This document shows positions 12,542-29,674 of a stretch of DNA of 64,000 nucleotides, piece by piece. The translations under genes were made by a program, and so were the position numbers. The notes under the pieces were generated by a model, which was not told the origin of the DNA, did not search any database, and saw only the letters and a list, made by a program, of their open reading frames with translations. How positions within the stretch are numbered: position 1 is the stretch's first letter; each line of letters opens with the position of its first letter. Source of the DNA: Thermus igniterrae ATCC 700962 (lineage in GTDB: Bacteria; Deinococcota; Deinococci; Deinococcales; Thermaceae); NCBI RefSeq assembly GCF_000376265.1, contig NZ_AQWU01000062.1, forward strand, positions 1-64,000, given 5' to 3'.

Positions 12542-14959
12542 CTACTTCTCCTCCTCCACCACGAAGGCGCTGGCCACCTCGTCCTCCTCGGGCAGGTTCA
12601 TCACCTTGACCCCCGCGGTGGCGCGGGAGTACTGGCGGATCTCCGCCACCGGGGTGCGGATGGCCAGGCCCTTTTTGGAAAGGACGAGGAGGTCCTCCGG
12701 GCCCCGCACCTTCAGGAGGGCGCTTAGGCGGCCCACCTTCAGGGAGACGGCGTAGGTGATGACCCCCATCCCCCCCCGGCCCTGCCGGGGGTACTCCGCC
12801 AGGGGGGTGCGCTTGCCGTAGCCCCGGGTGCTTACGGAGAGGAGGTCCGCCATCTCCCCGGGCTTGACGGTGACCAGGGAGACCACCCGGTCCCCCGGCT
12901 TCTTGAAGCGGATGCCCACCACCCCCTGGCTGTCCCGGCCCGTGGCCCGCACCTCCTCCAGGGGGAAGCGGATGGCCTGCCCCTCCGCCGTGGCCAGGAT
13001 GGCCTCGTCCTCGGGGTCGGAGAGGGCCACCCCCACCAGGCGGTCCCCCTCCTGCAGGCGGATGGCGATGAGGCCGGCGGTGCCCAGGTTGGCGTACTCC
13101 TTGAGGGCGGTGCGCTTGATCAGGCCCCTTTCCGTGGCGAAGACCAGGTAGCCCTCCCCCTCCAGGCCCCGCACGGAGAGGAGGGCGGCCACCTCCTCCT
13201 CCTCGGTGAGGGGCAGGAGGGTTTTCACGTGCACCCCCCGGGCCTGGCGGCCCATCTCCGGCAGGTCGTAGACCTTGAGGCGGTAGACCCGGCCGCGGTT
13301 GGTGAAGAGGAGGAGGTCGTCGTGGGCGTCGGCCACGAAGACCTGGGTGGCCTCGTCCTCCTCCTTGGTCTTGCCGGCCAAAAGGCCCTTGCCCCCCCGC
13401 CCCTGGGCCCGGTAGCTCTCCAGGGGAAGGCGCTTCAGGAAGCCCTGGGCGGTGCGGGTGATGACCATGGGCTCGTCCTCAATGAGGTCCTCGGGGTTGA
13501 AGCTTTCCTCAAACTCGGTGAGGAGGGTACGCCGGGCGTCCCCGTAGCGCGCCTTGATGCGGAGGAGCTCCTCCTTTACCTCCTGCCAGAGCCGGCCCTC
13601 GTCCTCGAGGATGGCCCTCAGCCGGGCGATCTCCTCCATGAGCTCCCGGTATTCCTCCAAGAGCTTCTCCCGCTCCAGGGCCACCAGGCGTTGCAGGCGC
13701 ATGTCCAGGATGGCCTGGGCCTGGGCCTCGGAGAGGCCGAAGCGCTCCGTGAGCCGGGCCCGGGCCTGGGCGGCGTCCTCCGAGCCGCGGATGAGGGCGA
13801 TGACCTCGTCGATGTGGTCCAGGGCGATGAGGAGGCCTTCCAGGATGTGCGCCCTTTCCTCGGCCTTCTTCAGGTCAAAGAGGCTCCGGCGCCGCACCAC
13901 CTCCTTGCGGTGGTCCAGGTAGTGGCGCATGAGCCCAAGGAGGGGGAGGACCTTGGGCTCCCCGTTCACGATGGCCAGGAGGTTCACCGTGAAGGAGGTC
14001 TGCAGGGCGGTGTGCTTGTAGAGCTGGTTCAGCACCACCTGGGGGTTGGCCCCCCGCTTGAGCTCAATGGCGATCCTGAGCCCCTGGCGGTCGGACTCGT
14101 CCCGCAGGGCCACGATGTCCTCAATCTTCTTGGCCTTGACCAGGGCGGCGATCTGGGCGATGAGGCTGGCCTTGTTGACCTGGTAGGGGATTTCCGTGAC
14201 CACCAGCATGGGCCGCTGGCCCTTCTCCTCCACCCGCACCTTGGCCCGCACCTTGAGGCTGCCCCGGCCGGTGGCGTAGGCCTCCTTGATCCCCCGGCGG
14301 GAGAGCTTGCCCCCTGTGGGGAAGTCGGGGCCCGGCAGGTGGCGCATCACCTCCTCCAGGGTGATCCCGGGGTTGTCGATCATGGCCACCAGGGCGTCCA
14401 CCACCTCGGAGAGGTTGTGGGGGGGAAGGCTGGTGGCCATGCCCACGGCGATGCCGCTGGCCCCGTTCACCAGGAGGTTGGGGATGGCCGCGGGGAGCAC
14501 CTCGGGCTCCTTGAGGGAGCCGTCATAGTTGGGGCGGAAGGGTACCGTTTCCTTGTCGATGTCGGCCAGCATCTCCGCCCCCAGGGGGGAGAGGCGGGCC
14601 TCGGTGTAGCGCTGGGCAGCGGGGGGGTCGCCGTCAATGGAGCCGAAGTTCCCCTGCCCGTCCATGAGGGGGTAGCGCAGGTTCCAGGGCTGGGCCATGC
14701 GCACCAGGGCCTCGTAGATGGCCGCGTCCCCGTGGGGGTGGTATTTGCCCATGACCTCGCCCGTGATCTTGGCGCTCTTCACGTGCTTGCGGTTGGGAAG
14801 CACCCCCTCCTGGTAGGCCCCGAAGAGGATGCGCCGCTGGACCGGCTTGAGCCCGTCCCGCACGTCGGGAAGGGCCCGGTCCACGATGACGGACATGGCG
14901 TAGTTGATGAAGCTCTGCTTGAGCTCCTCGGTGATTTCCACGGGTACGATCTGGGCCAT
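12542..14959 (-). CDS. gyrA: DNA gyrase subunit A
   Basis: The 805 residues comprise the breakage-reunion domain, with the catalytic tyrosine Tyr118 ([10 protein letters not shown]), a coiled-coil arm and the C-terminal DNA-wrapping beta-pinwheel. The pinwheel keeps a GyrA box (QGRGGKG), which identifies gyrase rather than topoisomerase IV. In the quinolone-contact region the motif is [12 protein letters not shown], so the positions of E. coli Ser83 and Asp87 are Ala79 and Glu83. It introduces negative supercoils together with GyrB, which is not in the window. A TATAAT box lies 34 bp upstream. Three small genes follow on the same transcript. Confidence 0.97.
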
Positions 14960-14965
14960 AGCGTT

Positions 14966-14973
14966 CCTCGAGG
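14966..14973. repeat. CCTCGAGG octamer (one of about 37 copies)
   Basis: This perfect 8-bp palindrome lies in the gyrA leader. About 36 further copies were found by eye through the window, mostly inside genes on both strands and in different reading frames. Another intergenic copy is at 33486-33493, in the centre of the liv hairpin. Confidence 0.6.
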
Positions 14974-14993
14974 GCGTTCAGACGCCTCTTCTC

Positions 14994-15026
14994 ATTATAG
15001 CAGTCCCCCGGGTTCCCGGGGGTAAA
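14994..15026 (-). promoter_or_regulatory. gyrA promoter with a perfect palindrome in the spacer
   Basis: On the minus strand the -10 box is a perfect TATAAT (14994-14999). The best -35-like hexamer, TTTACC (15021-15026), is 21 bp away, which is long. An 18-bp palindrome, CCCCCGGGTTCCCGGGGG (15005-15022), fills the spacer. It could terminate aroQ transcription, act as an operator, or shorten the spacer by extruding; which is not decided by the sequence. Confidence 0.55.
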
Positions 15027-15051: not shown

Positions 15052-15495
15052 TTACTTCCCCCCCACCTCCAGGGCCTCGGCCAGGTAGGTGAGGGCCAGC
15101 TTGTAGGAGAGGGGGCCAAAGCCGGAGATGATGCCCCGGCAGGCCCCCGCGGTCACGGAGTGCTGGCGGAAGGGCTCCCGGGCGTGGAGGTTGGAGAGGT
15201 GGACCTCCACCACGGGGAGGGGCTGGGCCCGGATGGCGTCCAGGAGGGCGTAGGAGTAGTGGGTGAGGGCCCCGGGGTTCAGGACGATGGCCAAGAAGCC
15301 CTCCCGGTGGGCCTGCTGCACCCACTCAATGAGCTGGCCCTCGTAGTTGCTCTGCCGGAAGGCCACCCCCAGGCCCAGCTCGGCCCCCCAGGCCTCGCAG
15401 AGGGCCTCCAGCTCCTCCAGGGTGGTGTGGCCGTAGATGTGGGGCTCCCGCCTGCCCAAAAGGTTCAGGTTGGGACCGTTGAGGATCAGCACCAT
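15052..15495 (-). CDS. aroQ: 3-dehydroquinate dehydratase, type II
   Basis: This is the third step of the shikimate pathway: 3-dehydroquinate loses water to give 3-dehydroshikimate. The 147-residue length is that of the dodecameric type II enzyme. The signature VLILNGPNLNLLGRREPHIYG includes the catalytic Tyr and Arg, with QSNYEGQLIEWV, LNPGALTHYSYALLDA and EVHLSNLHAREPFRQHS following. I start at ATG 15495 with AAGGAG upstream; the longer frame would add 29 charged residues absent from the family. It is divergent from the M23 gene. Confidence 0.95.
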   Translation of the reverse strand: MVLILNGPNLNLLGRREPHIYGHTTLEELEALCEAWGAELGLGVAFRQSNYEGQLIEWVQQAHREGFLAIVLNPGALTHYSYALLDAIRAQPLPVVEVHLSNLHAREPFRQHSVTAGACRGIISGFGPLSYKLALTYLAEALEVGGK

Positions 15496-29590: not shown

Positions 29591-29630
29591 ACTCGCTCCT
29601 TTCTGGGGACCACCCTTGTAATTCAGGCCA

Positions 29631-29660
29631 AGTATAATGCGCCCCCTTCCGGGGGCGCAA
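29631..29660 (-). promoter_or_regulatory. Promoter of the peptide transporter operon with hairpin in the spacer
   Basis: On the minus strand, -35 TTGCGC (29655-29660), an 18-bp spacer and -10 TATACT (29631-29636). The palindrome of 29639-29658 (8-bp arms, TTCC loop) fills the spacer and is also the likely terminator of livF, which ends at 29675. Confidence 0.65.
29639..29658 (-). terminator. Hairpin after livF
   Basis: Perfect 8-bp arms GCGCCCCC and GGGGGCGC around TTCC, 17 bp past the livF stop. It is followed on the minus strand by ATTATACTT, which is also the -10 region of the next operon. Confidence 0.55.
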
Positions 29661-29674
29661 GCCGGGGTATGGGC

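Follow-up and report, generated by a model that had tools for sequence, protein, structure and literature searches.

The genes aroQ and gyrA lie in the same orientation on the minus strand of the DNA analysed here, a stretch of 64,000 nucleotides from Thermus igniterrae ATCC 700962 (hereafter the window), with aroQ being the upstream gene. We take aroQ to encode the type II 3-dehydroquinate dehydratase from its MVLILNGPNLNLLG start, and the initial annotation of this region gave the gene the same name. A gap of 92 bp separates the aroQ stop codon (TAA, at 15052) from the gyrA start codon (ATG, at 14959). Read along the minus strand, the gap contains first a T-rich stretch and then, one after the other: TTTACC; the inverted repeat CCCCCGGGAACCCGGGGG; ACTGC; TATAAT; seven bases; GGCGT-CTGA-ACGCC; AGGA; and the ATG of gyrA. 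The positions of these features are listed in Table 1.

Table 1. Genes and sequence elements in and around the aroQ–gyrA gap (window coordinates).
Feature	Position	Strand	Basis or remark
aroQ (3-dehydroquinate dehydratase, type II)	15052..15495	-	ORF list and gene model; codirectional with and upstream of gyrA
gyrA, 805 aa	12542..14959	-	ORF list; ATG at 14959
Inverted repeat CCCCCGGGAACCCGGGGG	15005..15022	-	29 nt past aroQ stop; proposed aroQ 3'-end hairpin
Weak -35-like box TTTACC	15021..15026	-	4/6 match; 21 bp from the -10
gyrA extended -10 element TGCTATAAT	14994..15002	-	TATAAT hexamer at 14999-14994
Predicted gyrA transcription start	14987	-	7th nt past the -10 hexamer; inferred
gyrA leader hairpin GGCGT-CTGA-ACGCC	14973..14986	-	begins at about +2 of the message; conserved in Thermus
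Shine-Dalgarno-like AGGA	14965..14968	-	sequence

We infer the approximate start of gyrA transcription from the position of its -10 and from Thermus gyrB, whose -10 ends, as judged by eye, about 6 nt upstream of the GTG, so that gyrB is probably leaderless. Among the matches listed in our literature searches on Thermus transcription starts, terminators, leaderless genes and gyrase promoters or leaders, none announces in its title or the opening of its abstract a mapped start or end of the gyrA transcript in Thermus.

The initial annotation described the repeat as a perfect palindrome lying exactly between the TATAAT and the best -35-like box. The repeat is real and does lie in the spacer of the gyrA promoter, and the distance of 21 bp between the two boxes is correct. 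The repeat is not perfect, since its two 8-bp arms surround a 2-nt AA/TT centre, and it also overlaps TTTACC by the final 2 bases of that box. Folded alone, CCCCCGGGAACCCGGGGG forms 7 bp with a 4-nt loop, and it ends 5 nt upstream of the perfect extended -10 element TGCTATAAT. Its strength is reached by 0.16% of 5000 dinucleotide shuffles of the 92-bp gap (P 0.0016). Thus, the repeat is above chance locally, yet it is not rare in the genome as a whole: the pattern CCCCGGGN{0,6}CCCGGGG is found at 29 genomic places, compared to 9 for the reversed control. When 18 of these 29 places were inspected together with their flanks (15 loci and 3 sites in the window), some looked like gene ends while others appeared by eye to be coding. 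No DNA similar to the region was found in the plasmid collection, and the search of the gyrA region against Rfam gave nothing near the gathering score, with one sub-threshold match that we attribute to chance.

The gyrA promoter and its upstream repeats in Thermus

Relatives of gyrA were obtained from all 27 Thermus genomes. In three of the assemblies the gyrA match is split (L026/L029 in G008, L027/L028 in G016 and L025/L030 in G020), perhaps owing to frameshifts or assembly errors.

The -10 of gyrA is conserved in Thermus, and TGN stands directly before the hexamer in 25 of the 27 genomes (the exceptions being G005 and G015); thus, the spacer need not matter. With TGCTATAAT and no match to a -35 at 16-18 bp, the promoter resembles the extended -10 type used by the primary sigma factor, from which it differs in nothing notable. 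At spacings of 14-22 bp, the best -35-like match is TTTACC, which agrees with TTGACA in 4 of 6 positions; the hexamers found at 16-18 bp agree in 0 or 1 of 6. TTTACC is probably not a functional -35, and a -35 box would appear to be dispensable for gyrA.

The upstream repeat behaves differently from the conserved extended -10. The initial annotation had stated that its proposal, a repeat that senses supercoiling, should be given up if the palindrome is not conserved in other Thermus gyrA promoters, and the palindrome is absent from the other 26. Within the 60 nt that precede the gyrA -10, repeats with 18 bonds or more do occur in 10 of the 27 genomes; their sequences differ among clades, the CCCCCGGGAACCCGGGGG-type repeat being present in the source genome only and other repeats in the remaining 9. 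Four of the 10 genomes (G000, G003, G001 and G009) beat 95% of the shuffles of their own 60 nt. Such repeats are found in 10 of the 22 genomes in which the upstream neighbour, mostly aroQ, is codirectional with gyrA, compared to none of the 5 with a divergent neighbour, a difference that is suggestive but not convincing alone, the orientation classes having been judged from ORFs and partly by eye. As 12 of the 22 codirectional genomes have no such repeat and only four of the 10 exceed 95% of shuffles, aroQ does not generally need one.

Readings of the spacer repeat

Hairpins past stop codons were counted in 464 kb (the window and a further 400 kb) of the 2.2-Mb genome, which has 69% G+C, using our own gene calls based on codon usage. 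A hairpin was considered strong when a repeat with at least 20 hydrogen bonds is found within 70 nt past the stop codon, and gaps of at least 45 bp were included. Of the codirectional gaps, 31 out of 101 have a strong post-stop hairpin, compared to 6% of shuffles, which is about five-fold, and the aroQ–gyrA repeat is one of these 31. Convergent gaps show a weak excess (2/10 vs. 10% of shuffles), and in divergent gaps strong hairpins upstream of genes are found in 2 out of 40 (4% of shuffles). The 8 nt that follow the hairpin contain 3 T or fewer in 16 of the 31 cases, the aroQ–gyrA repeat included; thus, a poor U-tract is usual in this genome.

The placement next to a -10 also recurs. In the same genome, a hairpin is directly followed by TATACT before a CBS-domain-like gene (named by eye from the translation), and hairpins adjoin the -10-like boxes of an ABC substrate-binding-like gene and a glutamate-dehydrogenase-like gene (also named by eye). 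Gyrase is therefore not alone in having this arrangement. Loci at which a G+C-rich gene-end hairpin abuts the -10-like box of the next gene are L044:1501-1521, L191:15463-15512 and window positions 29591-29674.

We consider it probable that the repeat belongs to the 3' end of aroQ and has no part in gyrA regulation, and that gyrA is transcribed from an extended -10 promoter that is indifferent to the spacer and to the -35. The repeat stands past the aroQ stop codon, it is a member of the post-stop class, relatives do not keep it as part of the promoter, and they do keep the extended -10. The aroQ transcript would fold a G+C-rich hairpin (7 bp with a 4-nt loop) 29 nt past its stop codon, and this hairpin may mark, stabilise or help to terminate the transcript; its action is thus presumed to take place in the aroQ RNA. 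With so short an intergenic gap, the hairpin comes to overlap the gyrA promoter, and the promoter would tolerate the overlap because the extended -10 would be independent of the spacer and of the -35 box. What looked temptingly like a supercoiling sensor is then most likely the end hairpin of one gene pressed into the promoter of the next, a clean negative, and a hairpin in the promoter is also found before a few other genes of this compact genome.

The initial annotation had mentioned in passing that the palindrome could be the aroQ terminator. This has become the best-supported reading, except that the canonical U-tract is missing. Like an intrinsic (rho-independent) terminator, the repeat forms a G+C-rich hairpin soon after a stop codon, and the 75-nt stretch that contains it has an MFE z-score of -2.47, with 5 of 200 shuffles folding equally well. 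Unlike such a terminator, it has no run of U after the stem: the next 8 nt, ACUGCUAU, contain 3 T, and the terminator scan does not report the site. The repeat should therefore not be called a canonical intrinsic terminator.

That the repeat is an incidental G+C-rich inverted repeat without function for either gene is rather unlikely. It would fit with the lack of conservation, the missing U-tract and the high G+C content of the genome, but not with the P value obtained for the gap or with the enrichment of the post-stop class over shuffles.

It is very improbable that the repeat is an operator for a DNA-binding regulator placed in the promoter spacer, in the manner of the radiation/desiccation response motif (RDRM), i.e. 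the DdrO operator, of the sister genera. Operators at gyrase promoters do exist in the family, in that RDRM-like palindromes are found at gyrA and gyrB of the Thermaceae outside Thermus (see below). However, the repeat is unlike RDRM in sequence and is not conserved at gyrA, no RDRM with up to 2 mismatches is found in any of the 27 Thermus gyrA upstream regions, and homologs of IrrE/DdrO are reported as absent from Thermus in passages of PMC8072749. In addition, the core pattern of the repeat occurs at 28 other genomic places, and the 17 of these that were inspected include some that appear by eye to be coding. Another candidate, GGCGTNNNNACGCC, was considered as the operator of a regulon and rejected: the gyrA site is the only one in the genome (3 for the reversed control), so there is no regulon.

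Finally, the repeat could extrude or twist under negative supercoiling, alter the effective spacing of the -35 and the -10, and so tune gyrA transcription. The repeat does sit in the promoter spacer of a gyrase gene, and extrusion is not forbidden on energetic grounds: it would cost about 12.6 kcal/mol before the junction, compared to 12.7 kcal/mol released at sigma -0.06, a rough estimate that uses 37°C parameters and a textbook quadratic supercoiling term. In E. coli promoter libraries, spacer sequence affects supercoiling sensitivity, but the effect of spacer length is minor and is non-significant once promoter strength is corrected for, according to passages of PMC8695583. As the repeat takes up 16 of the 21 bp of the spacer as well as 2 bp of TTTACC, extrusion would leave 5 bp instead of the working distance of about 17 bp and would break the -35-like box; the cruciform mechanism is rejected on this spacing and not on the borderline energy. 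With a repeat present in 1 of 27 Thermus genomes, the wrong geometry, a conserved extended -10 and similar hairpins next to the -10-like boxes of unrelated genes, we give almost no credence to a sensor that shortens the spacer.

A conserved leader hairpin of gyrA

What the relatives keep is not the spacer repeat but a small hairpin predicted at the very beginning of the gyrA message. GGC is found exactly 7 nt past the -10 hexamer in all 27 Thermus genomes. In 22 of the 27, a perfect hairpin whose arms have 4 bp or more opens at that GGC, compared to 3.3% of shuffled leaders. The other five leaders are that of G020, which has an outer G-U pair, and those of G001 to G004, which have the 3-bp form GGC-TTTG-GCC. 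The stem shortens on both arms together, namely: GGCGT/ACGCC, GGCG/CGCC and GGC/GCC. Outside Thermus, G049, whose GyrA is 85% identical, has GGCCC/GGGCC at the same position. Furthermore, the pattern TATAMT-N7-GGCGN6CGCY has 12 matches in the 27 genomes, one each in 12 of them and all at gyrA, while the control has none.

To align the leader hairpins, 12 distinct ones were cut out, comprising 11 Thermus forms and that of G049, with the 3-bp forms of G001 to G004 excluded. In this alignment 95% of the cells are paired. Two of the pairs have changes in both partners, in each case because of G049. Two such pairs are reached in 9 of 500 shuffles, and the covariation score is reached in 20 of 500. 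These pair changes provide modest support for a hairpin that would form in the leader RNA.

Upon folding of the predicted leaders at 37°C, the hairpin (3 to 6 bp) is the best structure in 21 of the 27 genomes, with another fold predicted in the other six. At 70°C, 19 of the 27 leaders keep the hairpin intact at -1.8 to -3.1 kcal/mol; at this temperature G010, G013 and G004 give a weak form, G019 and G020 another fold, and G001 to G003 no structure. Support from any single genome is weak, since an arm of 4 bp or longer, at any of three offsets, is seen at 12% of random genome positions; the case for the leader hairpin rests on its conservation.

With transcription starting 7 nt past the -10, the hairpin would begin at about +2 of the gyrA message. 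Bacterial mRNAs with a 5'-terminal hairpin commonly decay more slowly from that end, and our preferred role for the Thermus hairpin is that it may slow such decay of the gyrA mRNA. That the conserved element is an operator is less likely than that it acts as RNA, given the variable distance, 4 to 9 nt within Thermus, that separates GGC from GCC. As a separate observation, GGCGT could also pair with the RCGCT that precedes the start codon, a pairing that would mask the Shine-Dalgarno site.

A structured gyrA 5' leader is also known from Pseudomonas, where PMC2864571 lists the motif RF01740 and passages of PMC8297930 report premature gyrA 3' ends in P. aeruginosa. The Thermus hairpin differs from these leaders in that it is very short, belongs to unrelated bacteria and has no Rfam match of note.

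Predicted terminators and RDRM-like sites in related genera

The sister set consists of 22 Thermaceae genomes outside Thermus (gyrA loci L139-L160, gyrB loci L224-L245), G047 having been excluded for its fragmentary gyrA. In 20 of the 22 genomes, the 100 nt that precede the start codon of gyrA contain a predicted intrinsic terminator, which typically has the form AAGCGC-loop-GCGCTTTTTTT. It lies downstream of a TATAAT- or TATACT-type -10, i.e. between the gyrA promoter and the start codon. The two genomes that miss it are G031, where the stem is mismatched, and G049. No such leader terminator is found in the 22 gyrB upstream regions of the sister set or in the 27 Thermus gyrA leaders. In the three genomes that were searched, the terminator pattern occurs once per genome, at gyrA. 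The predicted termination site in the gyrA leader of Meiothermus has the form GCGC...GCGCUUUUUUU; the search of a Meiothermus relative's gyrA leader against Rfam gave nothing near the gathering score and one sub-threshold chance match. From its sequence and position, the terminator of the sister genera is a candidate transcription attenuator of gyrA.

The sister genomes also carry the RDRM-like palindromes referred to above. The 17-bp palindrome TTAYG-N7-CRTAA, with at most 1 mismatch, is present at gyrA in 19 of the 22 genomes (0.9% of shuffles) and at gyrB in 20 of the 22 (1.8% of shuffles). The two gyrB misses are G049 and G040, the contig of the latter ending 53 nt upstream. As judged by eye, the gyrB palindromes adjoin the -10, except for G036, in which the match lies elsewhere. 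When a stricter pattern was searched across the whole of ten sister genomes, 11 matches were obtained, of which eight lie at gyrA, one lies at gyrB and the other two lie in other places. In 5 of the 50 genomes of the family the exact site stands two bases ahead of TGNTATA, each time at gyrB. RDRM-like sites were also seen upstream of two other genes (L218 at 1501, in G027; and L220 at 1501, in G029).

In Deinococcus, RDRM sites are described at gyrA and gyrB (passages of PMC1978522 and PMC5552922), and the TTAYG-N7-CRTAA sites of the sister genera match this motif in sequence. The repeat of the source genome is, like the Deinococcus RDRM, a palindrome in a gyrase promoter, but it differs in sequence and architecture, and it is the sister genera instead that have the RDRM-like sites. 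Passages of PMC8072749 report IrrE/DdrO homologs in Meiothermus and its relatives and none in Thermus; in the parts of the literature on DdrO, RDRM and gyrA that we retrieved, Meiothermus is named in this source only, and with respect to the regulators, not their sites. The lack of an RDRM at gyrA in Thermus (0/27 at up to 2 mismatches) agrees with the reported absence of DdrO. Counter to that absence, an RDRM match with one mismatch is found in 2 of the 27 Thermus gyrB upstream regions, and 2 more have a match with two mismatches.

Compared to the spacer repeat, the leader hairpin is the more useful lead: its sequence changes while its place is kept, and a full terminator is found in the sister genera. 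It is possible, though we regard it as doubtful, that the leader RNA of gyrA controls the gene in the Thermaceae, with the Thermus hairpin descending from or paralleling the terminator of the sister genera. Early termination would then set gyrase synthesis in the sister genera downstream of a DdrO-type operator, and the Thermus hairpin would control the lifetime of the mRNA or the access of ribosomes. If it is true that the leader attenuates gyrA, it would be a second layer of control on the supply of gyrase in this group.

In the wider class, gyrA upstream regions from 18 of 40 further genomes were viewed by eye. The six genomes of one family (G057 to G062) have leader hairpins of other sequences, one of which is followed by a T6 run, and the remaining genomes among the 18 have no clear equivalent of the leader hairpin by eye. 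RDRM-like sites are present in 3 of the 18 (G050, G054 and G056) and in none of G057 to G062. With regard to gyrB in Thermus (L161-L187), an element of the form CCC-N-T...AAGGGAAAAA recurs upstream of its -10.
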